Positions 13,738-53,873 of a stretch of 64,000 bases of DNA are shown here, in pieces. The stretch is from the NCBI RefSeq assembly GCF_007745175.1, contig NZ_CP036271.1:4972314-5036313 (forward strand), written 5' to 3'. Within the stretch, counting starts at the first letter, position 1. Each line of letters opens with the position of its first letter. The DNA comes from Caulifigura coniformis (GTDB lineage: Bacteria; Planctomycetota; Planctomycetia; Planctomycetales; Planctomycetaceae). The translations under genes and the position numbers were made by a program. A model generated the notes under the pieces. The model made no database searches, was not told the DNA's origin, and was given only the letters and a program-made list of their open reading frames with translations.

Positions 13738-13805
13738 GGTGCTGCGAGGATCCGGCAGGTCCTCGCTCCGGAATGTGAGAGCGAGCGTGCTCCCTGACGT
13801 CGTGA

Positions 13806-15685: not shown

Positions 15686-15734
15686 CCACATCACTGGAGA
15701 GCGCCTCGCTCTCGAATCCCCGGAAGGGCATTTT

Positions 15735-26808: not shown

Positions 26809-26876
26809 CGCGGCAACGGTCATTGGCCATCACTGGAATTCCTCGATCGACTCCTCTGACGCTCACGGAGAAGACA

Positions 26877-28142: not shown

Positions 28143-28158
28143 ACCAGGCGAGTGCAGT

Positions 28159-28214
28159 GTCACCACTCAAGCTAAGGGGGCCACTGGCTCCGCCAGTGCA
28201 ATCAAAGTGGTGAC
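28159..28214. repeat. nested hairpin of the CACTGGC-type repeat family
   Basis: An outer inverted repeat (GTCACCACT, 28159-28167, with AGTGGTGAC, 28206-28214) encloses an inner CACTGGC-TCC-GCCAGTG hairpin (28182-28198). The inner arm and its extension GCCAGTGCAATC recur at 53838-53849. It lies between the MFS and ribulokinase genes and could be a REP-like element or mRNA-stability structure. Confidence 0.6.
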
Positions 28215-28289
28215 CTCCACTCCAGAGGCATTGGGAACGCCAGTCCTCTCATTTCGTTCCACTTCCGTCCCGAGTTCCGCGGGGATTCG

Positions 28290-29944: not shown

Positions 29945-31183
29945 TCAGGTCTTCTGCGGGACTGCGGGCGCCTTGAGCGGGCTCACGGGATGGTCGTAGG
30001 CGCCGAAATCGTTGAAGAAGAACCGCTTGGCGAAGCGGTAAACGAGGCTCTTCTCCGGGATTTCCTGGGTGGGCATGTCCTGCGAAGTCCGCGCGGTCAT
30101 GGCGAGGAGTTCGGCCGCCGCGGTCTTCCGGGCGGTCTGGTCTCCCGCGTCGTGCAGCACGGCCAGTTCGTGGAGCAGGTCGGGCCGTTCGAGAACGATG
30201 CAGCCGCGGGTGCTGGAGGCGGCGAGCTGGCGGAAGTCGTGCAGGAATTTCGATTCGATCATAACGCGGTCGATTGGCCGCGTGTCGTGAATCGTTTCCT
30301 TCGCGAACTGCACGATCGGGCAGGGCTCGATGCCGCCCCAGGGATTGATGTGGTGGCTGATTCCGGTCGCCGCCGGGCAGAGCGCCTTTCCCTCGCCGTC
30401 GTAGTAGGCATCAATGATCGCGATCGGCTTCTTCGCCCGCATTTCGACGACGAAGCGACGAAGCTTCAACTGCTGTTCACGCGTCAGGCAGAGTTCGGGA
30501 TTCGCATCGGGGCCCATCGGCCGGTAGACGTGGAACCAGGTGTAGAAGACCCCCATTTCAATCAGGCGGTCGAGCCACTTCTCCTGCACGAGGTCGTCGA
30601 AATTGGTCTGGCAGACGCTCGTGCAGACCCCCGTGAGCAAATGGTTCTTCAGGCAGTTCTCGACGCCGCGCATCGTGTCGGAGAGGACATGCTGACGGCC
30701 GCGACGCTCGTCGCTGACGATCTCCGTTCCTTCGACGCTGATGAGGGGAGTGATGTTGCCGAGACGCCGCATTTCCTTGGCGACTTCATCCGTGATGAAA
30801 TGCCCGTTCGTGAAAATCTGGAAGTAGGCGTCGGGATGCCGGGAAAGTGCCTTCAGGAGGTCCTTATGCATGAACGGCTCGCCGCCGACGATGCCGAAGA
30901 AACTGTTGCCGGCCGCCTTCGCGTCGTTGATGAGCCGGGTGAGCGATTCGAGGTCGATCGTCTGCTGCTTGGCGGCCACATCGACCCAGCACCCCTGGCA
31001 GCGGAGGTTGCAGGAATTGATGACGGAGATGTAGAGGAACGGCGGGAAGTACTCTCCCCGTTTCAGCCGCCGCTTGAAACGCTGAACGGACAGCGCGCCC
31101 TTGAGGCCGAAGTTGTACGCCAGCTTCCAGACCAGACGCTTGTCTGCTTCGAGCAGGACCCGTTTGGCCATTCGCAGATACAT
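29945..31183 (-). CDS. radical SAM enzyme, unknown substrate (412 aa)
   Basis: Radical S-adenosylmethionine protein with the cluster motif CNLRCQGC (Cys58, Cys62, Cys65), then FFGIVGGEPFMHKDLL (SAM-binding strand), FQIFTNGHFI and ISVEGTEIVSDERRG. A further Cys-containing region CPAATGISHHINPWGGIEPCP resembles the SPASM/twitch type that holds extra clusters, although only a few cysteines are seen. The typical next strand features are present; the substrate is not predictable. It follows a CobW-like GTPase by 78 bp on the same strand, suggesting a metal- or cofactor-handling pair. Confidence 0.88.
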   Translation of the reverse strand: MYLRMAKRVLLEADKRLVWKLAYNFGLKGALSVQRFKRRLKRGEYFPPFLYISVINSCNLRCQGCWVDVAAKQQTIDLESLTRLINDAKAAGNSFFGIVGGEPFMHKDLLKALSRHPDAYFQIFTNGHFITDEVAKEMRRLGNITPLISVEGTEIVSDERRGRQHVLSDTMRGVENCLKNHLLTGVCTSVCQTNFDDLVQEKWLDRLIEMGVFYTWFHVYRPMGPDANPELCLTREQQLKLRRFVVEMRAKKPIAIIDAYYDGEGKALCPAATGISHHINPWGGIEPCPIVQFAKETIHDTRPIDRVMIESKFLHDFRQLAASSTRGCIVLERPDLLHELAVLHDAGDQTARKTAAAELLAMTARTSQDMPTQEIPEKSLVYRFAKRFFFNDFGAYDHPVSPLKAPAVPQKT

Positions 31184-31261
31184 CAGCAGCTCACTGCAAT
31201 TCGTGAACGACAGTCGGTCGAGCCGGAGGCGTGAGCCCCCGGGAACTCGTTGGACTCTCTC

Positions 31262-32368
31262 TTACTTCGCCAACGACATCCGATGCGTCGGCATGGGACG
31301 CCCCGGCCGGAACGATTGTGTCGAACCGAACGTGGCTGTCGCGCCGAACGCGGCGCATGTCTTCGTCACAGCATCATAGACCAGTCGCGTCAGTTGCTCC
31401 GGATCGCACGCAACCCGCGCATTCACCACGAGGTCGACTTCCTTCACCTGACACTTGGATGGCAGCGACAGCTCCGGCGTCATCGTGCTGGCCACAAGAT
31501 TCGCCACTCCGAAGAATCCCTCCCACAGGCCGATCGCCTTGAGGTGGGCCGGTTCCAGTCCCTCTGCGGCCAGGGTCTCCTTCAGACGTCCGATGAGGTC
31601 GAGAAGAAGTTCATCGAGCGCGAACGGCTTTGCCGAGTTCACCTGGACGGAACTGTTGAGCCAACCCAGTTCGGCTTCGCCATCGGCGTAGATGTCGTAA
31701 TCGATATCGAGGATCCGGCGGCCAAAGTCGCCAGACTGGTTGAGGAATTCCTCGAGTGCTTCGAAACCCTCGCCCGTTCTTGCCGAAATGCGCAGGCGCG
31801 GAGTTTGCGGATACCGCGCTGCGAGAAGCGTCTCGAGTTCCTGCAGTTCCGCAGCAGTCAATTCGTCCACACGGTTGATCAGGATGACGTCGGCTTCTTC
31901 GAGCTGCTTTTCGAGAATATAAGCGGCCTTCGGCGAGAAGCCGCTGCCTGGCTCGTTCTTCAGGATCTTCCGCCCCTGGCTGGGCTTCAGGATGACCGCG
32001 TAAGGGGCGATCTCGAAACGGGCGTCGTAGAGCTGTTTCAGCGGCTGGATCACCGTGGCGACCAGATCCGTGCAGCTTCCGACAGGCTCGGCGAGGATGA
32101 TGTCCGGGGCATTGTCACGGTCGAGCTTTTCGACGGTTCCGACGAGGTCATCGAACTTGCAGCAGAAGCAGGCTCCGGCGACTTCCCCGACATCGAACCC
32201 CTGGGAACGCAGGTTGTTCGTATCGACCAGGTCCTGGGCCTGATCGTTCGTCACGATGCCGACCTTGAGCCCCAGCTTCATGGCGTCGCGGGCGAGCCGC
32301 GAAATCGTTGTCGTTTTCCCGGCGCCCAGGAAGCCGCCCACGAGCACAAATTTCATCTGCTGAGGCAT
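31262..32368 (-). CDS. CobW-like G3E GTPase (368 aa)
   Basis: P-loop metallochaperone-type GTPase. Walker [11 protein letters not shown] (residues 11-20), the family CxCC motif [11 protein letters not shown] (Cys67, Cys69, Cys70) expected to bind a transition metal, the switch-like [13 protein letters not shown] and the NKxD-type specificity motif in its variant NRVDEL. The C-terminal third lacks an obvious CobW_C domain and holds further conserved-looking stretches ([17 protein letters not shown]). The start at 32368 (MPQQMKF) is used; an alternative is 32356. Forms a pair with the radical SAM gene, perhaps supplying its metal cofactor or that of a client. Confidence 0.88.
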
Positions 32369-32468
32369 GCGTTGCTGCTGGTCTCGATCACGAATCACGA
32401 AAGGAGACGACCAGCGTACACCCGGCGAGCGCCGCCGGGCAATGAGCCCGGCCTGCCGCGCAGGGCAG

Positions 32469-32564
32469 GTCACTTTTTCAAGATGGGCCAATTCGTCGTT
32501 GGTGTGCGTCGTTGCCGCAAAATGACTTGCGGCGACAAGAGACGACCGACTTAGAAAAAGTGAC
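32469..32564. repeat. 96-bp palindromic repeat, copy 1
   Basis: Bounded by perfect 11-bp terminal inverted repeats GTCACTTTTTC and GAAAAAGTGAC, with an internal hairpin (GTCGTTGCCGC...GCGGCGAC). The second copy, at 32881, is the same length and in the same orientation, and about 14 of 96 bases differ by hand count. It looks like a MITE-type or REP-like element. Confidence 0.75.
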
Positions 32565-32880
32565 TCGCCCCGCCCCAATCCCAATCCGCCAAAGCACTCC
32601 CGACTCCCGCGTACCGGACCCATCCGCGCAACCGCCCCCGTGATGATGGAGGACCTATGAACACAACCACCGTCAACCTGTCGTCACCCCCCCCCGGCCT
32701 CGCCAGCTCCATGTCTGCATCACGCACGCTCTCCCGATCCCTCCGCTGAACTTCCGCAGGGAAAGAGGGCGAGGAGTACAGTACCACCCACACAACGCGC
32801 CCTCCTCGCCCCCCTTGGCGTCAAACACCTCCGCAGTGTTCCCAATCCCTGCCCGAGCCTGCGAACTCCGCGCACGGCTG

Positions 32881-32976
32881 GTCACTTTTTCAAGATGGGC
32901 CAGTTCATCGTTGGGTTGCGCTGTTGCCGCCAAATGACTTGCGGTGACGAGAGACGACCTCTTGTGAAAAAGTGAC
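32881..32976. repeat. 96-bp palindromic repeat, copy 2
   Basis: Same terminal 11-bp inverted repeats and internal architecture as copy 1, about 410 bases away. Differences cluster in the right-hand part and in the hairpin loop, with the ends untouched. No target-site duplication is obvious. Confidence 0.75.
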
Positions 32977-33053
32977 TCGCCCTGGACCTGCCGCTAAGCT
33001 TTGGCACGCCTGTTTCACCGCCCGTTCTTCGAATTCATTGACGATCGCTATCC

Positions 33054-34253
33054 GTGTCCGCGCAGCCAGATGACGAACGACCGGCACTGCTTGGCGGGAC
33101 TCCTGTCCGTCCGGAAGGAGCCCCCGTCTGGCCTCCACGGAATGCTGCGGTGGTGGATGCCGTCCGCCAGGCCGCGGACGAGGGCGCCTGGGGGCGGTAC
33201 GTCGGCCGATATGGTGACGAGCTGCGGGCTTTGCTGCGGGAGAGACATGGAGTCGGGCACGCCTGGTTGTGCAGCAGCGGGACGGCGGCCGTGGAACTGG
33301 CCCTGCGCGGGCTGGGCGTCGTCGCCGGGGACGAGGTGATCCTCGCGGCCTACGATTTCAAAGCCAACTTCACCGATGTGCTGGCGATCGGCGCTCTGCC
33401 GGTGCTGGTCGACGTGCGGGCTGACGACTGGCAGCTCGACGTTGACAAGGTGCGCGACGCAATGACGTCGAAGACGAAGGCGATCCTGATCTCGCACCTG
33501 CATGGAGGGAGCGTCGATCTTGCGAGGCTCCGTGAGATTGTGGGCGACGGCGTTCCGATCGTCGAAGACGCCTGCCAATGCCCGGGCTCTGTCATTGATG
33601 GCCGACCGGCCGGCTCGGCCGGTGACGTGGGAGTCCTCAGTTTCGGGGGCAGCAAACTGACGGCGGCGGGGCGTGGCGGGGCGGTGCTGACGGATCGCGG
33701 GGACGTCATCGAACGCATCAAGCGTCATGTGATGCGGGGCAATGATCTGTCCCCCCTCTCTGAGCTCCAGGCGGCCGCTCTGGTTCCCCAGTGGCGATCA
33801 CTCGATGAGCAAAACGAACAACGCCGCCGCAGCACGCGTTCTCTGCACGGATTGATGGCGGAGATCACCGGTCTGAGGATGCTGATCCCTCCCGACCATT
33901 CCCGGGCGGCGGGGTATTACAAGGTCGGATTCGAGTATGACCCGACGGTGATGGCCGGCCTGTCGCGAGAGACGTTTTGCCTGGCGATGCGGTCCGAAGG
34001 AATCGCATTCTGGCCCGGGTTCCGCAGCCTGCATCGAATCCATGCCGCCCGGCGCTTCCGCGCGGCTGGGCCTCTCCCGGTGGCCGATCGTGCAGACGGA
34101 CGAATCGTGCTGCTGCATCACCCGGTGCTTCTGGGCACGGACGCCGACATCGAGCAGATCGTCGTCGCCCTGCGAAAAATCCAGCATGCAGCCAGCGATC
34201 TTTCTCGCCGGTCGTTCGAGATTCCACCCGCGCCCTGGGACCGAGATGAGTAA
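33054..34253 (+). CDS. DegT/DnrJ-type PLP aminotransferase-like protein (399 aa)
   Basis: Fold-type I PLP enzyme related to sugar aminotransferases/dehydratases. Visible are SSGTAAVELALRG (cofactor phosphate binding), YDFKANFTDVL, VEDACQCPGS (the PLP Asp) and the Schiff-base lysine in SFGGSKLTAAGRGG (Lys201). The GTG at 33054 is the start assigned; it has no clear ribosome-binding site. DegT enzymes normally aminate UDP-linked sugars, and this sequence looks intact, but its neighbours are not sugar-nucleotide genes. It overlaps the next gene by 8 bp and heads a four-gene set ending with a lipoyl protein and ferredoxin. Confidence 0.85.
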   Translation: MSAQPDDERPALLGGTPVRPEGAPVWPPRNAAVVDAVRQAADEGAWGRYVGRYGDELRALLRERHGVGHAWLCSSGTAAVELALRGLGVVAGDEVILAAYDFKANFTDVLAIGALPVLVDVRADDWQLDVDKVRDAMTSKTKAILISHLHGGSVDLARLREIVGDGVPIVEDACQCPGSVIDGRPAGSAGDVGVLSFGGSKLTAAGRGGAVLTDRGDVIERIKRHVMRGNDLSPLSELQAAALVPQWRSLDEQNEQRRRSTRSLHGLMAEITGLRMLIPPDHSRAAGYYKVGFEYDPTVMAGLSRETFCLAMRSEGIAFWPGFRSLHRIHAARRFRAAGPLPVADRADGRIVLLHHPVLLGTDADIEQIVVALRKIQHAASDLSRRSFEIPPAPWDRDE

Positions 34254-34686
34254 CCCGCTTCTGCCCGATGCGGCCGCCGTTGAACAGTGCCAGACGATCC
34301 TCGCGCATGCGTGGATGGTGCGGACGTTCGTGAAGCACAGTCAGGAGGTCGAGGACTTTCCCGAGCTGATGGGGATTGTCCGGAACGTGTTCGACCTTTG
34401 CCGCGCAGTGGAGTCGCGCGTCGGCGACCCTCCGGCCTACATCCACCAGCTCCGGAAGAAGCTGTCGAAGCTCAAGAAGGCGTCGATCCAGTTTGCCAAC
34501 GACGCTCCATTGGCCTCCGACCACACGAATTTCCGGCAGGCTGTCATTTCCATCGACGCCTGTGTGCGGGACCTGGAGGCGATTGTCGCCCGTTTTCCGC
34601 AGGCACGGCCGCCGGGACCAGCGTTTTCGCCGGCAATCGACTCCAGTAAGCTCGACACGGACGACGATCCCGACACCGGGGATTGA
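34246..34686 (+). CDS. small helical hypothetical protein (146 aa)
   Basis: Not recognised. The start at 34246 overlaps the previous gene by 8 bp. The sequence is almost entirely helical (MVRTFVKHSQEVEDFPELM; RQAVISIDACVRDLEAIVARF), soluble, with a basic central segment (HQLRKKLSKLKKAS) and an acidic, disordered tail (DTDDDPDTGD). It lies between the DegT-like enzyme and the lipoyl protein, so it may be an adaptor or complex partner. No catalytic motif. Confidence 0.7.
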   Translation: MSNPLLPDAAAVEQCQTILAHAWMVRTFVKHSQEVEDFPELMGIVRNVFDLCRAVESRVGDPPAYIHQLRKKLSKLKKASIQFANDAPLASDHTNFRQAVISIDACVRDLEAIVARFPQARPPGPAFSPAIDSSKLDTDDDPDTGD

Positions 34687-34746
34687 CGTTCGCACGAACT
34701 GCCAGCCCCTCGTCGTTCCCGCGATTTCAGGTCATTCCCGCCGCTT

Positions 34747-35208
34747 ATGTCGGACTCCAGCGTCGTTTTCATGATGGGCAAGTTCGAAGCGGTCCTCCCG
34801 TCGGACCGCTCCTACGCCGACAACCATCATTGGCTGAAGCAGGAAGGTCCGGTCTACCGGGTCGGTTTCACTTCGTACGCTGTGCGATTGCTGCAGGACG
34901 TCTATTTTCTTGACTGGTCGATCGATCCGGACACGGCCGTCCGCAAGAAGCAGGAAGTGGGGGAGATCGAGACGTCCAAGGCGGTGGCGAGCCTGTACGC
35001 GCCGCTGGACGGCCGCATCGTGGCGTTCAACCCGGCCCTGATGAACGATCCGTCCCTGATCAATACCGACAACTACGACGGCGGATGGCTCTATGAAATC
35101 GAGACCGCCGCGCCGATGATGACCGTCGACGATTATGTGGCCCACCTGAACGCCACCTGGGACGCGACGCAGAGGACGCTGAAGGGGCAGTACAACGAGG
35201 CCGAATGA
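34747..35208 (+). CDS. GcvH-like lipoyl-domain protein (153 aa)
   Basis: Resembles the H protein of the glycine cleavage system, which carries an aminomethyl group on a lipoyl-lysine swinging arm. The lipoylation site is GEIETSKAVASLYAPLDG, with the modified residue predicted at Lys78. The fold continues through IVAFNPALMNDPSLINTDNYD and GGWLYEIE, as in GcvH. No gcvT, gcvP or lipoate ligase gene is nearby, and instead a ferredoxin gene follows 38 bp later. GcvH-like proteins (for example LbpA) can act in sulfur oxidation, so a non-glycine role is plausible. Confidence 0.88.
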   Translation: MSDSSVVFMMGKFEAVLPSDRSYADNHHWLKQEGPVYRVGFTSYAVRLLQDVYFLDWSIDPDTAVRKKQEVGEIETSKAVASLYAPLDGRIVAFNPALMNDPSLINTDNYDGGWLYEIETAAPMMTVDDYVAHLNATWDATQRTLKGQYNEAE

Positions 35209-35246
35209 TCGGCCCCGAAGGCTGTGCGAATTGAGGACGAGGATTC

Positions 35247-36242
35247 ATGGCTGACCGCAAACTGTCCGTGGTGATCGCCCAGGCGCCGGGGAAAAACCCG
35301 AACAAGCGCCAGCTGGAAGAAGACATCGCGGCCCAGCTGCTGATTGAGAACACCGCGAACGTCTCACTGGTTCCGCACCTGAACGACCTCTCGGCCGACG
35401 ACAGCGGCGCGCTGTGGCTGAAATCGGTCCCGGGTGATGTTGTCGTGCTGGCGTGGCTGTATCCGCGGGCGGCGCACTGGATCCTCGACCGGATGGGAGT
35501 CAAAGGACGCGAGGGAACGGTCCTGCTGCGCTCGGGCGATGACGACGAAGACGAACCGGAACCGGAGGCGCCCTCGCCAAACGCCATCGGTGCGCTCCAG
35601 GTTCCGAACCGGTCAATCTACGTGCTCGACCTGCGGATCGATGCCAAACCAGAAGTCTTCCTGAGCGAGATCCGTCGGATCGCGCGCGAATCGACGGTCG
35701 AGACGGTATCGCTCGACTTTTTCGGACTGTCAGCCAGCCCGGCCGTCCACCATGCGGCGCCGGTTTCGACCGAGCCGACCCGTTCGGACTTTACCGGCAA
35801 CGCGAAACGCCGGTGGTATCCGGTGATCGACTACAGCCGATGCACCAACTGCATGGAATGCATCGACTTCTGCCTGTTCGGCGTCTACGGGCTCGACGAC
35901 CAGGAACGCATTCTCGTCGAGCAGCAGGACAACTGTAAAAAGGGATGCCCGGCCTGCAGCCGGGTCTGCCCGGCGAACGCGATCATCTTCCCCGAGCACA
36001 AGACTCCGGGTATTGCGGGCGCTCCTGTTTCGGGCGCGTCGGATTTCAAGATCGATCTCTCCAAGCTGTTCGGGGCGCCATCCGCCCTCGAACTGGCGGT
36101 CTTGGAGCGCGATACCGAACTCGTCGCCGACGGACGGACAGCCGTGGGGATGTCAGTCGGGATTCCCAAGCGGCAGTCAAACCTGCCGGAGAAGCCCCGC
36201 GATGCGCTGGACGACCTGATCGACGGCCTGGACTCGTTCTGA
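35247..36242 (+). CDS. ferredoxin-domain protein with two [4Fe-4S] sites (331 aa)
   Basis: The C-terminal half contains two cluster motifs: CTNCMECIDFC (Cys199, 202, 205, 209) and CKKGCPACSRVC (Cys230, 234, 237, 241), followed by PANAIIFPEH. The N-terminal 190 residues are not ferredoxin-like; they contain an acidic stretch (DDDEDEPEPEAP) and a Rossmann-like alternation. Cytoplasmic by appearance (no signal). It directly follows the GcvH-like gene, suggesting it passes electrons to or from the lipoyl protein's partner. Family unknown. Confidence 0.85.
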   Translation: MADRKLSVVIAQAPGKNPNKRQLEEDIAAQLLIENTANVSLVPHLNDLSADDSGALWLKSVPGDVVVLAWLYPRAAHWILDRMGVKGREGTVLLRSGDDDEDEPEPEAPSPNAIGALQVPNRSIYVLDLRIDAKPEVFLSEIRRIARESTVETVSLDFFGLSASPAVHHAAPVSTEPTRSDFTGNAKRRWYPVIDYSRCTNCMECIDFCLFGVYGLDDQERILVEQQDNCKKGCPACSRVCPANAIIFPEHKTPGIAGAPVSGASDFKIDLSKLFGAPSALELAVLERDTELVADGRTAVGMSVGIPKRQSNLPEKPRDALDDLIDGLDSF

Positions 36243-36277
36243 ATTTCGTTCCGTTCCGATGGATCGACGAACGCAAT

Positions 36278-36325
36278 CAGCGGGCAGCCGAGGCGGAATG
36301 ACTTCCGGCCCTCAACCGCCCGCTG
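36278..36325. terminator. inverted repeat between ferredoxin and Hcp 2 genes
   Basis: CAGCGGGC (36278-36285) and GCCCGCTG (36318-36325) form a perfect 8-bp stem with a 32-base loop in the 100 bases between two convergent genes. The loop is long, so the terminator assignment is moderate. Confidence 0.45.
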
Positions 36326-36343
36326 TTCGGGTCAACCATGCTG

Positions 36344-36829
36344 TTACGGCTTCTTGTTGGCGGCGATGTCCCATTCGACTTCGACCGGCTCGGTGGCCGC
36401 CCCGGTATCGTCCTGGCCGGTGAAAGTGACTTTCACCTTCTCGAAGGAAAACGAGACGTTTTCCGACGCGAACTGGTCGCCGCCGCCGGACTGCTGCCAG
36501 CTGCTGACGAACACGTGCGTCATCTCGTACTTGAGGTATTCCACCGGTCCGCCGTCGCCGCCTGCCTTCAGGAAGTAGACGGTGGCATCGTCGTAGTGCG
36601 TGCCATCGCAGGTCTTGAGGAAGAGTTCGGGGGAGGCCGCGTCGGCCCGCTTGGTGGCGACGAGGTCGTTCACGTTGACTTTGGCCGTGCCGGCGCCCCC
36701 GCCGTAGGCACGCGACGAGGGGTTGCTCGAACCGAACGAGGCGCTGAGGAGATCGATCTCTCCTTCGTGTCCGTCGATCTTGGAATCACCCGTGACACCA
36801 GCAATCTTCAGCAGAATGTTAGCAGCCAT
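36344..36829 (-). CDS. Hcp-family tube-like protein, copy 2 (161 aa)
   Basis: Second Hcp1-family protein, same length as copy 1 and about 84% identical by hand count (25 differences of 161), starting MAANILLKIAGV and ending EWDIAANKKP. The start at 36829 follows GAAAGGG. Most changes fall in the outer loops. It stands alone in an unrelated neighbourhood. Two independent copies without a type VI system suggest use as a structural or secreted protein in its own right. Confidence 0.85.
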   Translation of the reverse strand: MAANILLKIAGVTGDSKIDGHEGEIDLLSASFGSSNPSSRAYGGGAGTAKVNVNDLVATKRADAASPELFLKTCDGTHYDDATVYFLKAGGDGGPVEYLKYEMTHVFVSSWQQSGGGDQFASENVSFSFEKVKVTFTGQDDTGAATEPVEVEWDIAANKKP

Positions 36830-36998
36830 GATTGGCGCCCTTTCAAAAGGTTTCCCGGCCGTCCCGTGCGGGTCACACACCGACCATCGCTGCGACCACA
36901 GCTATTCTCCGCCATTGCCCGCGGGAGTTGCTGAAATTCCGGTCGAGACGCGCTGACCGGTCGCCCCGGCGCCGCGACGCGTTCGGTGACCGCACGGA

Positions 36999-38024
36999 TC
37001 AGGAACGCTGCAGGTCGCCGGTTCCCTGGGTGGTGTAGCCAGGTAGCTGTCCCAGCAGCTTGCGGTAAGCGGCCGAGCGAACCACGCTGACGAACGCCTT
37101 GACCCGGCGGTCGTCCGCGAGTGCTTCAGGGATGCAGACGTCGTAGGCCTCTTCCTGGACGGGCAGGAAATCGAGTCCTGCCTCGACACTCGCGAGCTGG
37201 ACACAGATTCCAGCGTCCGCCCAGCCTGAACGCACGGCCTCGGTCACACCGCGGTGGTCGCGCGCGATGTGACGAGGCGCAGGCCGATCCGCCAGGAGGC
37301 GGTCGAGACACTGACGAGCGCCGGAGCCCGGGTCGCGTCCGATCCATGTGAGTCGGCTCTGCATGGCCGAACGCACCGAGCGCAGCCTGGCCGTCGGAGT
37401 GACGGCAACGCCTTCCTGCCAGCGGGTGATTCGCAACAGCCGAAAATCACGGCCGAGCGCGTCTGCAACGACCTGGCCATTGCGGCCGGGATCATCGTTC
37501 GTGGAGAGATGGATTCCTGCCAGATGTGCGAAACCGTTTCGCACCATCTCCACCGCCTGCCGACTGGAGCGCGGAAGCACCAGCAGCCGGAATTCCGTTG
37601 CCGCCGCGTACTGGCTGGCGAGAAGGCCGGCCGCGGGATCGCAACAGGCAAGGACGAGCGTATTCTCCGGCCGACATTGAGACGGGTCAGGGAGCGGCGT
37701 CCACATGGGCATCACACCCGCCGGATACAGCACCGTGCGTCCGCCGATTTCCGCTTTCCATCGTCGGTCCGGAGTGCTGCCGGGTTCCCACGCCCAGACC
37801 TCCCCTCCGCCCTGGGGGGGCGCGTTGCCAAAGAGGACTTCCACGGTCGTCCCCAGTGCCGCGGCGACGGCGAGCGCGGCGGAGACCGAGGGGACCAGGC
37901 GATCGCCTTCGATGGCTGTGACGGCTGTGCGCGAAATCCCGGCGCGATCGGCAAGCTCTGCCTGCGTCAGGCCAGCCTGAACCCGAAGTTCACGGACGCG
38001 ATTGCCGGAATTCGCGGATGTCAT
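36999..38024 (-). CDS. XRE-family regulator with periplasmic-binding-like domain (341 aa)
   Basis: An N-terminal helix-turn-helix of the XRE type (VRELRVQAGLTQAELADRAGISRTAVTAIEGDRLVPS, residues about 9-45) is joined to a C-terminal region resembling solute-binding proteins (PBP-like): LVLACCDPAAGLLASQYAA, FAHLAGIHLS, WIGRDPGSGARQCLDRLL. This architecture occurs in molybdate- or tungstate-sensing or similar ligand-responsive regulators; GRDPGSGARQ is the kind of oxyanion-binding loop found in molybdate-binding proteins. ATG start at 38024. It is divergent from a DUF1559 gene, with an operator-like repeat right at its start. Confidence 0.85.
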   Translation of the reverse strand: MTSANSGNRVRELRVQAGLTQAELADRAGISRTAVTAIEGDRLVPSVSAALAVAAALGTTVEVLFGNAPPQGGGEVWAWEPGSTPDRRWKAEIGGRTVLYPAGVMPMWTPLPDPSQCRPENTLVLACCDPAAGLLASQYAAATEFRLLVLPRSSRQAVEMVRNGFAHLAGIHLSTNDDPGRNGQVVADALGRDFRLLRITRWQEGVAVTPTARLRSVRSAMQSRLTWIGRDPGSGARQCLDRLLADRPAPRHIARDHRGVTEAVRSGWADAGICVQLASVEAGLDFLPVQEEAYDVCIPEALADDRRVKAFVSVVRSAAYRKLLGQLPGYTTQGTGDLQRS

Positions 38025-38054
38025 GATACTGTCGTGCTATGTCAGAATAGTATC
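38025..38054. promoter_or_regulatory. operator-like inverted repeat between the XRE regulator and DUF1559 gene
   Basis: GATACT (38025-38030) and AGTATC (38049-38054) form a perfect 6-bp inverted repeat, 18 bases apart, in a 59-bp divergent intergenic region. The first arm touches the regulator's start codon. It is a good candidate autoregulatory site and could also act on the divergent gene. Confidence 0.55.
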
Positions 38055-38083
38055 TTTGCGTAGTCGAGTCTAGCAGGTGCAGC

Positions 38084-39067
38084 ATGAGAATTCGGCGAGC
38101 GGGCTTCACCCTCATTGAACTGCTGGTGGTGATCGCCATCATTGCCATCCTGATCGCACTTCTCCTGCCGGCGGTCCAGCAGGCTCGAGAAGCCGCGAGG
38201 CGGACTCAATGCCGCAGCCAGCTCAAACAGCTCTCGCTGGCGATCTACAACTATGAAAGCACGCACAGTTGCTTCCCGCCGGGCCAGATCCGGATGGGGT
38301 TCGCCTCCCAGCCGCGGGTGAGAGGGTGGTCGATGTTCGTCCAGCTCCTGCCGTATTTCGAGCAGGGGGCGCTCTACAACAAGTGGGATTTCGCGGATCC
38401 CCTCGTCAATGAAACGAACGGCAGCACGGCGGCGGTCCTGCCGGTGCTGATCTGCCCCTCGGAGAGCCAGCTCCAGAATCCGTTTACGAAGCCGAGCGGC
38501 GCGCGGTACGCGCTTACCAGCTATGGCGGAAACGGCGGGACGCAGTCGCATCCGCCAGCGGCCACGAAGGGGGACGGCATTTTTGCGGGAACAGGGCCGG
38601 CGATCACGACGCCGCCCACAGTTCAACATGCGCTGGTCAGGATTCGGGACGTCACAGATGGAACTTCCAATACGCTGCTGGTCGGGGAACGGAGCCACTT
38701 CGACCCGAACTACGACACGTTCTTCGCCGGCGGGTATGCGACGAACCCCATGACGGGCTGGGGCTACTGGGCTCCCGCGGGGGGGCAGTTCGGACTGACG
38801 GACGTCACGATGAGCAGCTTCGGGCCAATCAATTCCCGAATTCCTTTCAACTTCACGAATCGCCCAGGCAGCATTTCCAGCGCGGCGACCTTCGACGCGT
38901 CAGTCGAATCGACGAGAAGACTCAATGCCTTTGGCAGTCTGCATACCGGCGGGGCCAATCTCGGCCTGGCGGATGGCAGCGTTCGGACCCTTTCGGAGAA
39001 CATCGATGCGAACGTCCTCAAAAGCCTGAGTACGCGCGGTGGAGGAGAGGTGGTCGGCGAGTTCTAA
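38084..39067 (+). CDS. DUF1559 protein with prepilin-type N terminus, copy 2 (327 aa)
   Basis: Same family as the protein at 20632. Short leader MRIRRAG before FTLIELLVVIAIIAILIA, then LLPAVQQAREAARRTQC, and a DUF1559 body with LPYFEQGALYN, TDGTSNTLLVGE, SLHTGGANLGLADGSVRTL. The leader is shorter and unambiguous here, so the start (ATG at 38084) is better supported than for the other copy. It shares a bidirectional control region with the XRE regulator and is followed one base later (TAATG) by the LRR gene frame, suggesting co-transcription. Confidence 0.92.
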   Translation: MRIRRAGFTLIELLVVIAIIAILIALLLPAVQQAREAARRTQCRSQLKQLSLAIYNYESTHSCFPPGQIRMGFASQPRVRGWSMFVQLLPYFEQGALYNKWDFADPLVNETNGSTAAVLPVLICPSESQLQNPFTKPSGARYALTSYGGNGGTQSHPPAATKGDGIFAGTGPAITTPPTVQHALVRIRDVTDGTSNTLLVGERSHFDPNYDTFFAGGYATNPMTGWGYWAPAGGQFGLTDVTMSSFGPINSRIPFNFTNRPGSISSAATFDASVESTRRLNAFGSLHTGGANLGLADGSVRTLSENIDANVLKSLSTRGGGEVVGEF

Positions 39068-39108
39068 TGCCGCCGGTTTCGACAGTATCCCGTGAGTGTG
39101 AGTCTCTG

Positions 39109-40572: not shown

Positions 40573-40583
40573 CCGGGGCCGGC

Positions 40584-41591
40584 TCACCGCGCCGGCGGAT
40601 TCGCCTCGCCCTGACGCATCAACGCCGTTAGCCCCAATCCGTAGAACGTGTATTCGACGTCGGCGGCGTTATCCCAGATAGCCGCGCGATACCCGCCGTA
40701 TTTCAGTTCCAGTTCCGCCAGGAACTTCCGGATCTGCCGTGGCCCGAGTATGTCCGTGAGCCCGAGGTCGAGGCACGTCAGGTAGCCGGTGAATGTGGAC
40801 AGGCTGTCCGAGAACGGGATCCGCTCGTTCGCCTGAAACCCGCCGTCGTCGCCACGAACCCCGCGCAGGAACTCGCTCACTCCGGCGCGGACGTCGTCCG
40901 TGACGGCGTCGAGCAGAGTCAAAACGGCCACCGCTGCGGCCGTTGGATTCGTCCCGCTGTTCTTCATGGGAGCGATCTCGACGAAGCCTCCGTCGTCGCG
41001 CCGACGATCGAGCAGGAACGCCACGATGCGGTCGGGCTCCGGCAGGGGCTGACCGATCAGTTCCAGGCAGAGCACGACCAGGAACGTGTGATAAGTGCTC
41101 CCGATGGCTCCCTCGCGGGTTTTCGCATAGCCGCCGTCTCGGGTCCGGAATTCTTCGAGCGTGGCCGCGAGTTTCTGCGGCCAGTCAGCCGGGGCATCGG
41201 CCAGGACGTCCGGACCTCCCTGAAGCTGCACCATCACGGCGCAGTAGAGCCAGCTGACGACGTCGATCACACTGGCGCTCGAGCGACCGATCGCCTGGAG
41301 ATACCGCGCCACTCGCTCGGCGTCGTCCTGCGAGAACGTCCCGAGCAGTCCCATGGCCCGCACGGCGAACGACGTGTAGTACAGGTCCGAATCGCGGGCG
41401 GGCGGTTGATCCGGATCGTCATCCTCGTCAGGCACGATGCGTCCTGTGAACCCGCCGTCGTCGTTCTGCTGCGACAGGAGGTACTGCCGATGCGCCTCGC
41501 GCCGCGCCGGTTCGAGACCGCGCAGCCCGTTACCCAGCCGTGAGCCGAGGCGCAACAGATAGGGCTCGGACCGCAGAGGGGCGTCGCTCAT
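40584..41591 (-). CDS. half-size prenyltransferase/squalene-cyclase-repeat protein (335 aa)
   Basis: Contains five or six repeats of the alpha-barrel type found in protein prenyltransferase beta subunits and squalene cyclases, each marked by DGGF or DGGY (for example RTRDGGYAKTREGAIGSTYH, RGDDGGFQANERIPFS). The last repeat (DVEYTFYGLGLTALM) corresponds to the geranylgeranyltransferase II beta region DPFHTLFG, but the zinc-binding His is a Tyr here, so catalysis by the usual zinc mechanism is unlikely. No DXDD motif. It starts 6 bp after the DUF116/prenyl synthase stop, last gene of the terpenoid operon; a prenyl-chain-binding or cyclase-helper role is possible. Confidence 0.85.
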   Translation of the reverse strand: MSDAPLRSEPYLLRLGSRLGNGLRGLEPARREAHRQYLLSQQNDDGGFTGRIVPDEDDDPDQPPARDSDLYYTSFAVRAMGLLGTFSQDDAERVARYLQAIGRSSASVIDVVSWLYCAVMVQLQGGPDVLADAPADWPQKLAATLEEFRTRDGGYAKTREGAIGSTYHTFLVVLCLELIGQPLPEPDRIVAFLLDRRRDDGGFVEIAPMKNSGTNPTAAAVAVLTLLDAVTDDVRAGVSEFLRGVRGDDGGFQANERIPFSDSLSTFTGYLTCLDLGLTDILGPRQIRKFLAELELKYGGYRAAIWDNAADVEYTFYGLGLTALMRQGEANPPAR

Positions 41592-41597
41592 GGACGA

Positions 41598-43454
41598 TCA
41601 GGCCGAGGCGTGACGCGTCACGATCGACAGCGGCACCACTGAAATCTGGGGCGGCTCGCTCGATTCCTGTGACAGGATCGTGTCGGTCAGGAAGTACAGC
41701 AGCTGTCGAAGCGCATCGGGCTCCGTTTCGTCCGCCAGTGCTTCGGCCTTGGCCCTGCATTTCTCCACAAGTGCCCGCGCCTGGTCGAAGATGCCAAGCT
41801 CCTGGTACAGCCTTCGCAACCGCTCGATCCGTGCCAGTGGGGGAGTTGCGTCGCTCAGGATCGCATCGAGCTCGAGCTTCTTTTCCGGCGAAGCTGCAGC
41901 CGCAGCCAGCGCGAGCAGCAGCGTCGGCTTCGCGGTTTCCGCATCGCGGGCCGTGTAGTTCTTGTTGGACGCGTGTTCCTGCCAGTCCTGGAGGTCGTTC
42001 AGGATCTGGAAACCGACCCCCACATGCCGGCAGAACTGCGTCAGCATCGACTCATAGGCATCCACCGGACCGGCCAGCCGCAGTCCTGCATAGAGCGCCG
42101 CTTCGAAGGCGGGCGAAGTCTTCAGTGCGTAGACCTTCATCGCTTCGAGCGGGGTCAGCATCTCTTTGGTGCTGGTCCACTGCAACTCGGCTCCCTGGCC
42201 TTCGCAGAGCTTGAGGTGCGCCTGGGCCAGCCGGTCGAGGATGTCCGCCAGGGCGTCGTTCGGGAGCAGTCCGCGGTTCACGCTGATCAGCCGGTATCCC
42301 AGCCCGATCAGGAAGTCTCCGACGTTGATCGCGGCCCCGAGGCTATGCTCATTGTGGATCGTCCGGCGGCCATAGCGGAAATCGTCGCCGTCTTCGATGT
42401 CGTCGTGGACGAGCGATGCCTTGTGGAACGCCTCGATGGCCATGGCCACCCGCAGCACTTCCGGCCCGTATTCGGGAAGGTCCTCTTCCGTGCGAGCGTT
42501 CACGGCCTTGCCGCCCGTCAGCGCGTCGTAGGCCGCGAGTGTCACGAAGGGCCGCAGACGTTTTCCGCCGTTCTGCAGCCAGTCGTGGGCGAGGTCCGCC
42601 GTGAACGCCAGCGGGCTGCTCGCGGCTCCTGCCCGGGGTGTCTCAGACGCTCCAGGCACGAGCGAGTGGAACTGCTTCTCGAAGACGGTCTGCACCCGCC
42701 GCATCAGCGGGATGTAGCTCGCCGTCTGTGGTTCATCGAGTGGCTCGTATTTATCGAGGCATTCCCACACCCACGCTTCGTCGAGAGTCGTGTTCTTGCA
42801 ATCCCCCGAATGCAACGGGATTGCGTACGACGGCACGCCGGCGATGAGGATCTTGTCGATCGCCTTTTCCAGCACGTTCAGGCACGCCACCCCCAGAATG
42901 CCGTCGATGTGCCCCGAGACGATGATCTTGAGAACGACCGGCGACCCCTCGGCCACGAGCACCTTGTAACCGAGTTGCTCCGCCCGCACCTTGTAGTCCG
43001 CGATCGAGCAGGCCCCGCACTTCTCGCAATCCAGCCCGAACTCATCGTAGTCTGCCGGGCAGCCGTCCGCGTGCTTCAGGCAGTGCGGAAGCAACAGCAT
43101 CCGCCGGTTAAACGGCAACGCCAGGAACTGCTTCTTCCAGAAGAAGTTCCCGATCATCACCATCGTGAAACCGAGGTACTTCTCCGGCTGGCCGAGTTCC
43201 TCCAGCAGTTTGCGGGCGTGCTGTTCGAGCTGCGCCTTCGTGAAGGCCCGGCTCTTGTCGAGCTTCGCTGCGTAGCCCTCGGCTTCGCGCTTGATGTGCT
43301 CCCGCTGTTCGAGAGTCTCGGGAACGATTTTCAGGTGGCTTGTGCTGCGGCCCGATTTCTCGCGCCCGGAGGCGGACTTGCCGTTTCGTTCCTGCAGCAA
43401 TTCAGCATCGGTCGACTGGGCGGGGATTTCATCAACAGACGCCGACAAGCTCAT
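41598..43454 (-). CDS. DUF116 - polyprenyl synthetase fusion (618 aa)
   Basis: N-terminal half resembles DUF116: conserved Cys cluster CLKHADGC (Cys125, Cys132) and CEKCGAC (Cys143, 146, 149), followed by VLKIIVSGHIDGILGVACLNVLEKA. From about residue 270 it is a polyprenyl diphosphate synthase: GGKRLRPFV, first aspartate-rich motif DDIED (351-355) and second motif in the form NDLQD (486-490), where the family norm is DDxxD. The synthase should build linear prenyl diphosphates from IPP; DUF116 is of unknown role and probably metal- or cluster-binding. ATG at 43454 follows AGGA. It is 18 bp from the cyclase gene. Confidence 0.9.
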   Translation of the reverse strand: MSLSASVDEIPAQSTDAELLQERNGKSASGREKSGRSTSHLKIVPETLEQREHIKREAEGYAAKLDKSRAFTKAQLEQHARKLLEELGQPEKYLGFTMVMIGNFFWKKQFLALPFNRRMLLLPHCLKHADGCPADYDEFGLDCEKCGACSIADYKVRAEQLGYKVLVAEGSPVVLKIIVSGHIDGILGVACLNVLEKAIDKILIAGVPSYAIPLHSGDCKNTTLDEAWVWECLDKYEPLDEPQTASYIPLMRRVQTVFEKQFHSLVPGASETPRAGAASSPLAFTADLAHDWLQNGGKRLRPFVTLAAYDALTGGKAVNARTEEDLPEYGPEVLRVAMAIEAFHKASLVHDDIEDGDDFRYGRRTIHNEHSLGAAINVGDFLIGLGYRLISVNRGLLPNDALADILDRLAQAHLKLCEGQGAELQWTSTKEMLTPLEAMKVYALKTSPAFEAALYAGLRLAGPVDAYESMLTQFCRHVGVGFQILNDLQDWQEHASNKNYTARDAETAKPTLLLALAAAAASPEKKLELDAILSDATPPLARIERLRRLYQELGIFDQARALVEKCRAKAEALADETEPDALRQLLYFLTDTILSQESSEPPQISVVPLSIVTRHASA

Positions 43455-43472
43455 TTCAATACATCCTGGATG

Positions 43473-45317
43473 TCAGTGGGGCGAACCGCCGGTGACGGAG
43501 GGCTTCGTATTGTCCGGCGTACGCCGCAGCTTCCGCGCTCTGTTCATGGCGGAAGTCGTGAAAATCATCGGATAAAGTCGCTCGAAATACCACAGCTTCG
43601 CGAAATAGAACCCGATCGGAGACACGTTTCGCCAGCGACCGTCACGAACAGCCTGCCCCAGATACCTCAGTCCCCGATCGGCGGCGACCCGACCGTCGTC
43701 CCCCATCTCGAGCAGCGCCTCCGTCGCCAGCGCGGTCTCCTCGATGCTCGAGGGACACCCCTCCGCCCCCCCCCAGCCTCCATCGGCATTCTGGATTCCG
43801 GCCAGCCACCTGGCCCCCTTTTCAGAATCGATCTCGGTAGGAAATCCAAGTTCGGCCGCCATCACGAGGACTTTTGACGTTCCGTAAACCGGATTCTCAT
43901 CATCCCGCGCGTGCTGGTTCCCGAACCACAGCGGCCTCCAGGCTCCTTCGCCTCCCTGGTTCTTCTTCAAGAATCGCAGTCCGCGTTCCCTCGCTGTTGC
44001 CGCCCGTCGCTCGTCGACGACGGAGGAATCGAACACCTGCGCAGCGTGGAGCGCCCGGAGGGCGTGGGCCGTCAGGTCGTTGGAACTGCGATCGAAGGGC
44101 AGGGCTCCCCAGCCGCGGCAGAACGTCGGCCACCCGCCGTCGCGGTTCTGGAGATCGAGAAGCCACGTCGCCGCCGCCTCCAGCGATTCCCGGGCCGCGC
44201 TCTCGAGCGCGGCATCCCTGCCGCCGAGCCGTCCCGCGAGTTTGATCACGGCCAGCATCGCGCCCGGGGTGTCGTCCGCATCGGGAACACCGCCACTCAG
44301 ATTGGTCCACGCCCAGCCTCCCGGGGCGGCTTGAGTGTACGGGTGGATTGACCGGTACTGCTGCCCGAGAAGCCATCGCAGAAGAAGCTCTGCGTGCTCC
44401 GGCGTGATGGAGTTCTCCTCCAGTGCATTGACCGAAAGTGTCGTCACCCAGGTCGCGAGGTTCGTGTCGATCGGCCAGCTCCCATCCGGCCGGACCGAGT
44501 CGATCAGGAACTGGAGTCCTTTTTCCGCGACCTCATGCTGCGCCAGTCCCATTCCGGCCAGGCTCATCGTGACGAAACTCGTCAACGGAGCGGCCTCGAG
44601 GAACCCGCCGCTTGTTGGCTGGATCGCTGTCAGCAGATCCAGCGTCTTAGGGCGGGCGAGATTCCGGACCTTTCTCAGCACCGGGTTCCACGAAGGCCGT
44701 CTGGTGTGAACCAATTGCCCGATCGCGATGAGCGCCGGCAGGGCGTAGCTGACGACCGGGAGTCGGATCCACTGGAAGAAGCGGTGTGGCAGGCAACCCA
44801 GTTCGAACGGCAGGCTCATCACCTCTGTCCACGGAACGACTCCTCCCAGGGCGCAGTGCGTCAGGATCGGAACCGAGAACGTCTTGTCTTTGCCGTAACG
44901 CTTCCGCAGCGCCGGGACACCACCGGCCGCATCGATCCACGCCCGCGACCGGTGCAGCAGATTCGCATATCGCTCCGTGTCGACCGCCCGGAACGACGCG
45001 TCGCACAACATCGTCGTCGCGATGTTGCTCATGCTCAGGACGGTGTCGCCCCAGCCACCGTCACGATTCTGATGCCTGGCCAGCCAATGCAGACCGTTCT
45101 CGATGAGCAGCCGCAGCGTCGGCCTCAGTTCCGGACGCGCCCGCTGCATCCATTCGAGCGCCATCACCGCGGTCGCCGTCGACAATGCGGAGGTGGAGAG
45201 CTCCCCGATCCAATGGCCGTCGGGACCGCATTCCGCCAGCAGCGCGGCCGTCGTGGCTCGCTGCGCATCCGCGAGGCTGTCGTTCGAGGCGGGTTCCTGG
45301 ATCGCTTGCTCTCTCAT
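43473..45317 (-). CDS. class II terpene cyclase, squalene-hopene-cyclase-like (614 aa)
   Basis: All-alpha cyclase with the protonation motif DXDD in PDADDTPG (Asp346, Asp348, Asp349), QW-like repeats (QNRDGGWGDTVL, RPDGSWPI, LQNRDGGWPTF, IQNADGGWGG) and GGWAWTNL before the DXDD. Length (614) is slightly shorter than hopene cyclases. Such enzymes start cyclisation by protonating an alkene or epoxide of squalene or a linear prenyl. ATG at 45317 follows CCGGGA; the frame is open 24 codons farther. Squalene-synthase genes (hpnCDE) are not in the window and a prenyl synthase is directly downstream, so the substrate may be a non-squalene prenyl chain. Confidence 0.88.
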   Translation of the reverse strand: MREQAIQEPASNDSLADAQRATTAALLAECGPDGHWIGELSTSALSTATAVMALEWMQRARPELRPTLRLLIENGLHWLARHQNRDGGWGDTVLSMSNIATTMLCDASFRAVDTERYANLLHRSRAWIDAAGGVPALRKRYGKDKTFSVPILTHCALGGVVPWTEVMSLPFELGCLPHRFFQWIRLPVVSYALPALIAIGQLVHTRRPSWNPVLRKVRNLARPKTLDLLTAIQPTSGGFLEAAPLTSFVTMSLAGMGLAQHEVAEKGLQFLIDSVRPDGSWPIDTNLATWVTTLSVNALEENSITPEHAELLLRWLLGQQYRSIHPYTQAAPGGWAWTNLSGGVPDADDTPGAMLAVIKLAGRLGGRDAALESAARESLEAAATWLLDLQNRDGGWPTFCRGWGALPFDRSSNDLTAHALRALHAAQVFDSSVVDERRAATARERGLRFLKKNQGGEGAWRPLWFGNQHARDDENPVYGTSKVLVMAAELGFPTEIDSEKGARWLAGIQNADGGWGGAEGCPSSIEETALATEALLEMGDDGRVAADRGLRYLGQAVRDGRWRNVSPIGFYFAKLWYFERLYPMIFTTSAMNRARKLRRTPDNTKPSVTGGSPH

Positions 45318-45339
45318 GTCCCGGTCACAATTTTCCCGG

Positions 45340-46299
45340 TCACAGTCGTGAAACGAGCAGGTAGAACATCGCGCCCAGCGCCGCCGCACACGGAACCGTG
45401 CTCACCCATGCCAGCATGATCTCGACGACGGTTTTCCATTTTGCCTGTCGCGTCGTCACTCCGATACCCAGCAGCGCGCCTACGCTGACGTGGGTGGTGC
45501 TCACCGGAAACTGGTGCAGGCTCGCGGTCGTGACGAGTGTTGCCGTTGCAATGCTCGCAGCCAGGCCTTGCCCGGGATTCATGGCGGTCACTTTCTTTCC
45601 CAGCGTCTCGGCAACCCGGTCGGCGTCCAGCAGTCCGCCGAGGGCGATCAACACCGCGATCACTGCAAACCCCCAGGTGACCGGAAGGTTAGGCACCGCG
45701 GCGAGAAGGGCCACCATTTTCGGAGTGTCATTGAGACCACGAGCAAAACTCGCCGCCCCGGAACTGATGAAGTGCAGTGTGTCGAGCGTCCGCGTCCTGT
45801 GGTCCGGCGCCAGTCGCAAGGGGCGCATCACAAGATACATCACTCCCCCCATCACTGCGGCGATGACCGGGCTGAAGAACAGGGGGGCGAGAAACAGTTT
45901 GCCCAGCACTTCAAAATGGACGTCCGAGCCGCTTCCGACCAGCCCCGCGCCGCACAGCGCCCCGACGAGCGCGTGCGTGGTCGACACTGGAAAACCGAAC
46001 CGCGTCGCGAGAAAACTTGTCGCCGCCGCCCCGAGCGCCACCGCGACCAGGAAGTGCGGCGTCTGGATCAGCGACTCGGGAACGAGCCCTCGCCCGCCGA
46101 AGCGGTTGATCAATCCGTGCGACAGGAATGCCGCCGCGAGCGAACCGGCAAATGTCGTCGCCGTCCCCCAGTAGAGGGCCGTGCGTAACGTGGTCGTCCC
46201 GCTGCCATACTGGGACGCGACGCCCTTGAAGTTGGCGTTGGCGCCGTTCGTGAAGGCGACGAAACAGGCCGCCAGGAAGAGCAGGGCGATCAGCACGAT
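45340..46299 (-). CDS. PiT-family permease (phosphate or sulfate) (319 aa)
   Basis: Inorganic phosphate transporter family member with about 10 membrane segments. The duplicated signatures are intact: FTNGANANFKG and GLNDTPKMVALL, and FPVSTTHALVGA and FPVSTTHVSVGA. PiT members carry phosphate, but the Bacillus CysP protein of this family carries sulfate. GTG at 46299 is the preferred start because ACAGG precedes it and it avoids a 74-bp overlap with the sulfurtransferase gene; ATG at 46380 would add a basic 27-residue tail. Between a sulfurtransferase and a terpene cyclase, a sulfur compound is a reasonable alternative to phosphate. Confidence 0.85.
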   Translation of the reverse strand: MVLIALLFLAACFVAFTNGANANFKGVASQYGSGTTTLRTALYWGTATTFAGSLAAAFLSHGLINRFGGRGLVPESLIQTPHFLVAVALGAAATSFLATRFGFPVSTTHALVGALCGAGLVGSGSDVHFEVLGKLFLAPLFFSPVIAAVMGGVMYLVMRPLRLAPDHRTRTLDTLHFISSGAASFARGLNDTPKMVALLAAVPNLPVTWGFAVIAVLIALGGLLDADRVAETLGKKVTAMNPGQGLAASIATATLVTTASLHQFPVSTTHVSVGALLGIGVTTRQAKWKTVVEIMLAWVSTVPCAAALGAMFYLLVSRL

Positions 46300-52330: not shown

Positions 52331-52495
52331 CGTTTGGCCGCCCGGGTGGCTCGAAACGCGGAAAAACACACAATCGGCTCGAGGCGACATCTGGAGGCAG
52401 TCTCCATCAGTCGTCAACGTCCCCCTCACATCGTAGACTCGCCGCCTCGTCGAGAGTGGTGTTATCCCCGGGTCTGCTTGCGCTCAGGTGGTTCG

Positions 52496-53809
<1,314 letters not shown>

Positions 53810-53821
53810 ACGGCGTGCGTC

Positions 53822-53850: not shown

Positions 53851-53873
53851 AAGACGGAGCCCTAATTCTCATC

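Follow-up and report, generated by a model that had tools for sequence, protein, structure and literature searches.

Caulifigura coniformis (Planctomycetota; Planctomycetia) has a genome of one 6.76 Mb contig (NZ_CP036271.1), of which a stretch of 64,000 nucleotides (contig bases 4972314-5036313, here called the window) encodes a GcvH-like protein and a ferredoxin in a set of genes that forms the subject of this analysis. An earlier note, made by reading the window sequence, had drawn the set as four genes on the + strand, and their positions and spacing (an overlap of 8 bp, then gaps of 60 and 38 bp) were confirmed. These encode a DegT/DnrJ/EryC1/StrS-type pyridoxal phosphate (PLP) enzyme (33054..34253; Pfam DegT_DnrJ_EryC1, 1.2e-55), which is a lineage-limited neighbour; a helical protein (34246..34686), which tracks the GcvH-like protein in other genomes; the GcvH-like protein itself (34747..35208; Pfam GCV_H, 5.1e-25), with a predicted lipoyl lysine, K78, at 34978-34980; and a ferredoxin having a Rossmann-like N-terminal domain and a two-cluster ferredoxin part (35247..36242; Pfam Fer4 families, best 8.3e-7). 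At the Pfam threshold applied to this set (E <= 0.001) the helical protein had no match, and its family is unassigned.

The four genes are part of a larger unit, 29945-45389, all members of which lie inside the window. Upstream, on the - strand, are genes for a radical S-adenosylmethionine (radical SAM) protein (29945..31183; Pfam Radical_SAM, 4.7e-16), which is a conserved partner, and a CobW/HypB/UreG-type GTPase (31262..32623; Pfam cobW, 6e-22; start codon uncertain). Downstream, and also on the - strand, are three terpenoid-type genes, encoding an alpha/alpha-toroid protein of the prenyltransferase/terpene-cyclase kind, here PT (40584..41591; Prenyltrans, 3.1e-13, with PDB profile matches), a DUF116 domain fused to a polyprenyl diphosphate synthase (41598..43454; DUF116, 1.2e-37; polyprenyl_synt, 2.4e-41), and a squalene-hopene-cyclase-like protein with a DxDDT motif (43473..45389; SQHop_cyclase_C, 5.1e-39). 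The four-gene set is therefore too small, leaving out the upstream pair and the downstream trio, and also partly too large, as just 3 of 40 loci centred on the ferredoxin in relatives have DegT as a neighbour. The larger unit was hidden from a reader of the sequence because the terpenoid-type genes are inverted in the window, from 45389 back to 40584, and are separated from the ferredoxin by 4.3 kb of inserted sequence, which is not at the matching place in two relatives (L033 and L034). The insert (36344-40572) holds an Hcp-like gene, an HTH/PBP_like gene, a DUF1559-type gene (identified by eye) and a leucine-rich-repeat gene.

Conservation of the set in relatives

Gene neighbourhoods were compared in 80 hand-selected loci. 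Forty are centred on ferredoxins of the class type and were picked to cover families, with four shortened by contig ends; the other 40 (L160-L199) comprise 20 from a phylum search with a GcvH-like profile and 20 around the cyclase gene, 19 of the latter being from class genomes chosen for missing a strong class-type gcvH. In the ferredoxin-centred loci, representing what is here termed the class form, the linked genes were gcvH-like in 30, cyclase-like in 24, DUF116-synthase in 23, HemN-like in 15, radical SAM in 11, PT in 5, DegT and the helical protein in 3 each, and CobW in 2. In L033 and L034, radical SAM and CobW share one strand, and DegT, helical protein, gcvH, ferredoxin, cyclase, DUF116 synthase and PT occupy the opposite strand; the window has an equal gene set, with the terpenoid trio inverted. 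On neighbourhood conservation, which the earlier note had proposed as a check, the gcvH-like and ferredoxin genes are members of a larger set conserved widely among planctomycetes, and DegT is linked in 3 of these 40 loci.

A second form has the order gcvH - cobW - CxC protein - ferredoxin - radical SAM - DUF116 synthase - PT - cyclase - cysteine desulfurase. Among the 40 loci L160-L199, all nine genes are present in 12, eight or nine lie on a single strand in 19, and the exact order is kept in 9; cysteine desulfurase is found in 13. Loci L160-L163, all four from a single family, carry seven genes and place the cyclase ahead of the synthase. Smaller arrangements also occur, having the gcvH-like gene alone (L175, L176), the cyclase alone (L188, L197), just cyclase and synthase (L184, L190, L195), or radical SAM, cyclase and synthase with no gcvH-like gene nearby (L180, L182; L180 also has PT).

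Co-occurrence was evaluated in 248 class genomes with strong-match cut-offs of 1e-30 or better for gcvH-like and 6e-57 or better for ferredoxin; weaker matches (18 ferredoxins at 6e-39 to 9e-27, 5 at 4e-6 to 2e-8, and 4 gcvH near 1e-24) were excluded before counting. The gcvH-like gene is present in 149 genomes and the ferredoxin in 149, with 147 having both and 4 discordant (Fisher p 3.7e-64, relatedness not corrected). The cyclase is present in 171 of the 248, including 147 of the 149 strong-gcvH genomes, and when the 18 weaker ferredoxins are counted, ferredoxin and cyclase are common to 165, with 2 and 6 discordant. Of 198 class genomes, 112 encode the helical protein, mostly unlinked, and 110 of these also have gcvH-like (4 and 2 discordant); the helical protein accompanies gcvH-like irrespective of linkage, in 110 of 114 gcvH-like genomes. 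Six genomes (G018, G186, G120, G140, G010, G015) jointly lack gcvH-like, ferredoxin, cyclase and helical protein and keep HemN-like. G018 shares a genus with the window, and G186 shares one with G037, which has the set; such presence and absence within a genus is a better argument than Fisher values, which ignore relatedness.

Across a sample of the phylum the cyclase was found in 91 of 392 genomes. A scan of species genomes with two peptide patterns from class-type ferredoxins, by which the second form could be missed, matched 396 stretches, of which 385 were confirmed; the best 80 of the 385 bear planctomycete names save for four labels. These four, one 'bacterium' and three 'Candidatus Kuenenia', are not vouched for. 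Three loci titled 'Candidatus Kuenenia stuttgartiensis' (L145, L152, L153) have a class-type ferredoxin, and the labels are possibly loose (metagenome bins).

A further block, seen at L048:2613-9172 immediately upstream of gcvH-like, contains LuxE-like (AMP-binding, at no better than E 0.0022), aldehyde dehydrogenase (ALDH), iron-containing alcohol dehydrogenase (Fe-ADH), pyrroloquinoline quinone (PQQ)-propeller and HemN-like genes, and a similar block is in L049, L055 and L069. Within the 40 class-form loci LuxE is linked in 7, ALDH in 8 and Fe-ADH in 9, and LuxE/ALDH genes lie beside second-form loci L171 and L179. HemN-like, LuxE-like, ALDH and Fe-ADH were considered as core members and set apart as a separate module because the distribution of HemN departs from that of the cyclase: HemN is in 194 of 248 class genomes, 31 of these without cyclase, and 8 cyclase genomes are without HemN. 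The HemN-like and ALDH orthologs of the window genome are located elsewhere.

Component proteins and other window features

The GcvH-like protein of the window scored 81.4 bits against the GcvH family TIGR00527, below the cut-off of 115.85. A second GcvH copy, at 2325464, exceeds the cut-off (127.3 bits) and adjoins GcvPA (611 bits, cut-off 364), and a GcvT over its own cut-off is at 5699167; GcvT and GcvPA are both far from the window, in keeping with the earlier observation that gcvT and gcvP are not near the set. A lipoate ligase, which the earlier note had also missed there, may likewise be absent, going by the window frames that were scanned, with no search for one in the rest of the genome. 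The earlier note would have been contradicted by gcvTP genes elsewhere lacking an H protein of their own, and the genome instead holds a canonical GcvH beside GcvPA, with GcvT present. Since canonical GcvH, GcvPA and GcvT are separately encoded, the GcvH-like protein of the window is very probably not the glycine-cleavage H protein. The ExxKA lipoyl-lysine motif was nonetheless kept in 60 of 60 GcvH-like proteins of the loci, and K78 is invariant in alignment A2 of class-type proteins, to which relatives the window protein is 47-62% identical. The proposal of a lipoyl-type carrier apart from glycine cleavage is supported by the conserved lysine motif, the sub-threshold score and the separate glycine-cleavage genes.

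The ferredoxin is 51-66% identical to aligned class relatives, and both four-cysteine motifs are present in 69 of 69 ferredoxins of the loci. In the AlphaFold model, the N-terminal domain is Rossmann-like, with predicted local distance difference test (pLDDT) values of about 80-95 over the first 90 residues, and the ferredoxin part is below 50; the matches listed from fold searches were generic. The CxC protein of the second form has invariant cysteines at positions 15, 17, 49 and 73 (17 aligned), and matches the N-terminal region of class-type ferredoxins weakly (64 columns, E 0.0037, hhalign probability 9.0%); the latter region is without the CxC cysteines. L199:5083-5796 is one frame of 237 residues that was matched as a second-form ferredoxin (46% identity) and opens, as judged by eye, with a CxC-type stretch in which the cysteines are kept. 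An HdrA-like N-domain, prompted by a C.C / AC.PR / NMR pattern in the CxC protein, was considered and is not claimed; no Hdr chain appeared in the sequence search or among the fold matches listed for the CxC protein and the ferredoxin N-domain.

The radical SAM protein is 60-77% identical to 14 of 16 aligned relatives and 39% identical to the other two, and its CxxxCxxC motif is in 40 of 41 proteins of the loci. Its solved relatives by sequence are SkfB, cytosylglucuronate decarboxylase and, weakly, tetraether synthase, and it has a weak NCBIfam match to the HpnH type. The CobW P-loop is in 26 of 28 proteins, and CobW adjoins gcvH-like in the second form.

The cyclase-like protein retains DxDDT in 58 of 59 loci (the exception being L061), and squalene-hopene cyclase is a solved relative (3.5e-15); its score of 111.1 bits against TIGR01507 is below the squalene-hopene cyclase cut-off of 431.1. 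A typical squalene-hopene cyclase is encoded at 3680411, so the window protein is an additional one. The synthase domain scored 142.1 bits against PF00348 (gathering score 27), with the first aspartate-rich motif, HDDIED, in 51 of 59 loci. In the fused DUF116 domain, CxxCxxC is present in 58 of 59 loci, and seven cysteines are invariant across 64 aligned domains. A fold search with the predicted DUF116 structure (pLDDT 85.5) gave no specific match; the match to an Elp-Hdr chain (Z 6.9, root-mean-square deviation 3.9, 106 aligned) was tied with unrelated Rossmann folds and is a lead only. By PDB profile, the solved relatives of PT are the Rab geranylgeranyltransferase beta subunit and cyclases. 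A protein prenyltransferase beta subunit is marked by an Asp, a Cys and a His that bind zinc; in the PT repeats aligned to the Rab subunit the C and H columns hold Y, but these repeats can be aligned in several registers. The cysteine desulfurase has strong family matches, the IscS type scoring 483 bits, below its cut-off of 548. The pattern SGGQE, chosen without an aligned reference, occurred in 0 of 13 NifS-like proteins, and nothing is drawn from this result.

A family of about 181 residues (L048:16960-17505 and 15 relatives) follows the DUF116 synthase, with HMT, PLG and YGR invariant, and is linked in 12 of the 40 class-form loci. From its motifs, a chorismate-lyase identity was tried for this small protein; the PDB profile match to 2nwi (E 0.29) and the Pfam UTRA match (0.11) do not allow it to be claimed.

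Elsewhere in the window, an arabinose-operon-like block (24614-29882) contains a ribulokinase that exceeds its cut-off, an Fe-ADH_2 gene, presumably of the AraM/EgsA type, a HAD hydrolase and a frame that, by eye, resembles the major facilitator superfamily. Consecutive genes on the - strand (7597-14915) encode an AcrB-type pump (10528-13737), an HlyD-type fusion protein and an outer-membrane efflux protein. Long putative open frames at 15636-16694, 21693-22739 and 52484-53872 had no Pfam match at 1e-5. Within the window, ARAGORN found no tRNA, and nothing scored above the gathering score of an Rfam family.

A proposed terpenoid pathway and its alternatives

The GcvH-like protein and the ferredoxin probably, by a modest balance of the evidence, provide the carrier and the electron transfer in a pathway that is conserved in planctomycetes and leads to a cyclised polyprenyl-derived (terpenoid) product. 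A single pathway is favoured because of the conserved neighbourhoods, the co-occurrence and joint absence of the genes, the conserved motifs, and the presence of a cyclase additional to the typical one. In the pathway as envisaged, the DUF116-fused synthase would make a polyprenyl diphosphate, and the squalene-hopene-cyclase-like protein would cyclise a polyprenoid, using DxDDT for acid catalysis and perhaps assisted by the PT toroid. The radical SAM enzyme would then modify the cyclised product, using electrons from the ferredoxin, and the lipoylated GcvH-like protein may be a carrier, of sulfur or of a one-carbon/amino unit, or an electron relay. CobW would be a GTP-driven chaperone.

Several points weigh against this proposal. 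The data show which genes are present, how they are ordered, their motifs, and their co-occurrence and shared absence. Lipoylation, the enzyme activities and the product are all predicted, as are the substrate and the order of steps, and the statistical and neighbourhood evidence comes from Fisher tests that ignore relatedness and from loci selected by the authors. CobW and PT are linked in just 2 and 5 of the 40 class-form loci, and neither was searched genome-wide. Further, 24 of the 171 cyclase genomes have no strong class-type gcvH-like gene; of 19 of these that were inspected, 10 have a second-form gcvH beside the cyclase and in 9 none was seen, at least two of the nine loci being at contig ends. 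Outside the class, L199 combines the ferredoxin with radical SAM, DUF116 synthase, PT and cyclase, and no gcvH-like gene lies within 20 kb. Such lineages, with cyclase and no linked gcvH-like gene, suggest that they may do without the lipoyl protein or have it displaced. (L199:5083-11049 is a reduced set from another family, with further redox genes seen by eye downstream.)

More specifically, and only as a tentative suggestion, the cyclised polyprenoid could be modified by a radical SAM and GTPase machine that is driven by the ferredoxin and receives sulfur or a one-carbon/amino unit from the lipoyl-H-type protein; the iron-sulfur DUF116 domain fused to the synthase would be the acceptor or the catalyst. 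This would be a new lipoyl-dependent pathway, neither glycine cleavage nor sulfur oxidation, leading to an undescribed planctomycete lipid or prenylated cofactor.

It is rather unlikely that two modules, one redox/lipoyl and one terpenoid, frequently travel together yet belong to different pathways. The parts of the class form are often unlinked (24 of the 40 loci show linkage of the cyclase, and 11 of radical SAM), and in 9 of 19 selected genomes the cyclase is without a linked gcvH-like gene, as such modules would allow. However, the second form has its redox and terpenoid genes on a single strand in a common order (kept exactly in 9 of the 40 loci), the prenyl synthase is fused to a DUF116 domain that has seven cysteines, and six genomes are devoid of gcvH-like, ferredoxin, cyclase and helical protein at once. 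The types of protein present (lipoyl-H, radical SAM, P-loop GTPase, iron-sulfur scaffold) match those of [FeFe]-hydrogenase maturation, and could instead form a machine in which radical SAM and GTPase proteins receive a small unit from a lipoyl-H-type protein and build a metal or prenylated cofactor, the isoprenoid genes providing a tail or anchor; with CobW matched as CobW/HypB type only, and not HydF, and no target metalloenzyme apparent within the set, this is judged improbable.

The earlier note had favoured a protein akin to LbpA, with sulfur shuttled on the lipoyl arm in a sulfur-oxidation-like redox chain and a PLP enzyme attached. The GcvH-like protein being outside glycine cleavage, the cysteine desulfurase in 13 of the 40 loci L160-L199, and the C-terminal SC, TC or PC at or near the end of five second-form GcvH-like proteins (a weak LbpA resemblance) are in its favour. 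LbpA, though, has two strictly conserved cysteines, some archaeal LbpAs excepted, according to excerpts of the published description (PMC6067878), and the window protein has no cysteine and none is invariant among 13 aligned class-type proteins. The partners are terpenoid, and no scanned core member reached an Hdr family cut-off, sHdr not having been searched genome-wide; this alternative is very unlikely. The lipoyl carrier outside glycine cleavage is thus supported, and LbpA kinship and the PLP enzyme as a constant partner (DegT being so rarely adjacent) are not; the isoprenoid-type enzymes and the radical SAM enzyme, which are the conserved partners, had been overlooked. Least probable of all is a second H protein of ordinary glycine cleavage, or a lipoyl relay to other enzymes: the GCV_H domain with its lipoyl lysine would suit it, but the score is below the GcvH cut-off, the canonical GcvH adjoins GcvPA, and G018, of the same genus, has a GcvH-type match (5.5e-23) and is without this GcvH-like protein.

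Lipoyl arms are known from 2-oxoacid dehydrogenases, glycine cleavage, sulfur oxidation and hydrogenase maturation. If the proposed terpenoid pathway is true, a further use would be that of a lipoyl-type carrier associated, through gene order and shared absence, with a radical SAM enzyme, a prenyl synthase and a terpene cyclase, and the set would point to an undescribed isoprenoid product that is widespread in the phylum. The question can be tested on lipid extracts, since species having the set and species lacking it occur even in a single genus. No description of the cluster was found in the open-licence PMC literature, as judged mostly from the openings of abstracts.

Comparison with known systems

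The glycine cleavage H protein (TIGR00527) shares with the window protein the lipoyl-domain fold, by family match, and a modifiable lysine; the window protein differs in falling below the cut-off, in its neighbours, and in a C-terminal extension (Y..HL...W..TQR..KGQ). Hopanoid clusters resemble the set in the class II cyclase homology and DxDDT of squalene-hopene cyclase, and hopanoid pathways also include a radical SAM partner, HpnH. The set is unlike them in a cyclase of 111 bits against a cut-off of 431, in its own DUF116-fused prenyl synthase, and in the typical cyclase being encoded elsewhere. As in the LbpA of sHdr sulfur oxidation, a GcvH-like protein is found beside iron-sulfur redox genes and is not for glycine cleavage; going by the excerpts of the LbpA description, the class form differs in lacking conserved cysteines and in having terpenoid and radical SAM partners. 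In [FeFe]-hydrogenase maturation, a lipoyl-H protein works with radical SAM enzymes and a GTPase, as stated in excerpts of two reports (PMC12752695, PMC11736057). From these, the system of HydE, HydF, HydG and aminomethyl-lipoyl-H-protein is the nearest parallel in manner of working, combining lipoyl-H, radical SAM and GTPase, and is unlike the present set in its GTPase family, in the isoprenoid genes found here, and in that the H protein here is specific to the set. On this comparison, LbpA fits less well than the parallel with [FeFe]-hydrogenase maturation.

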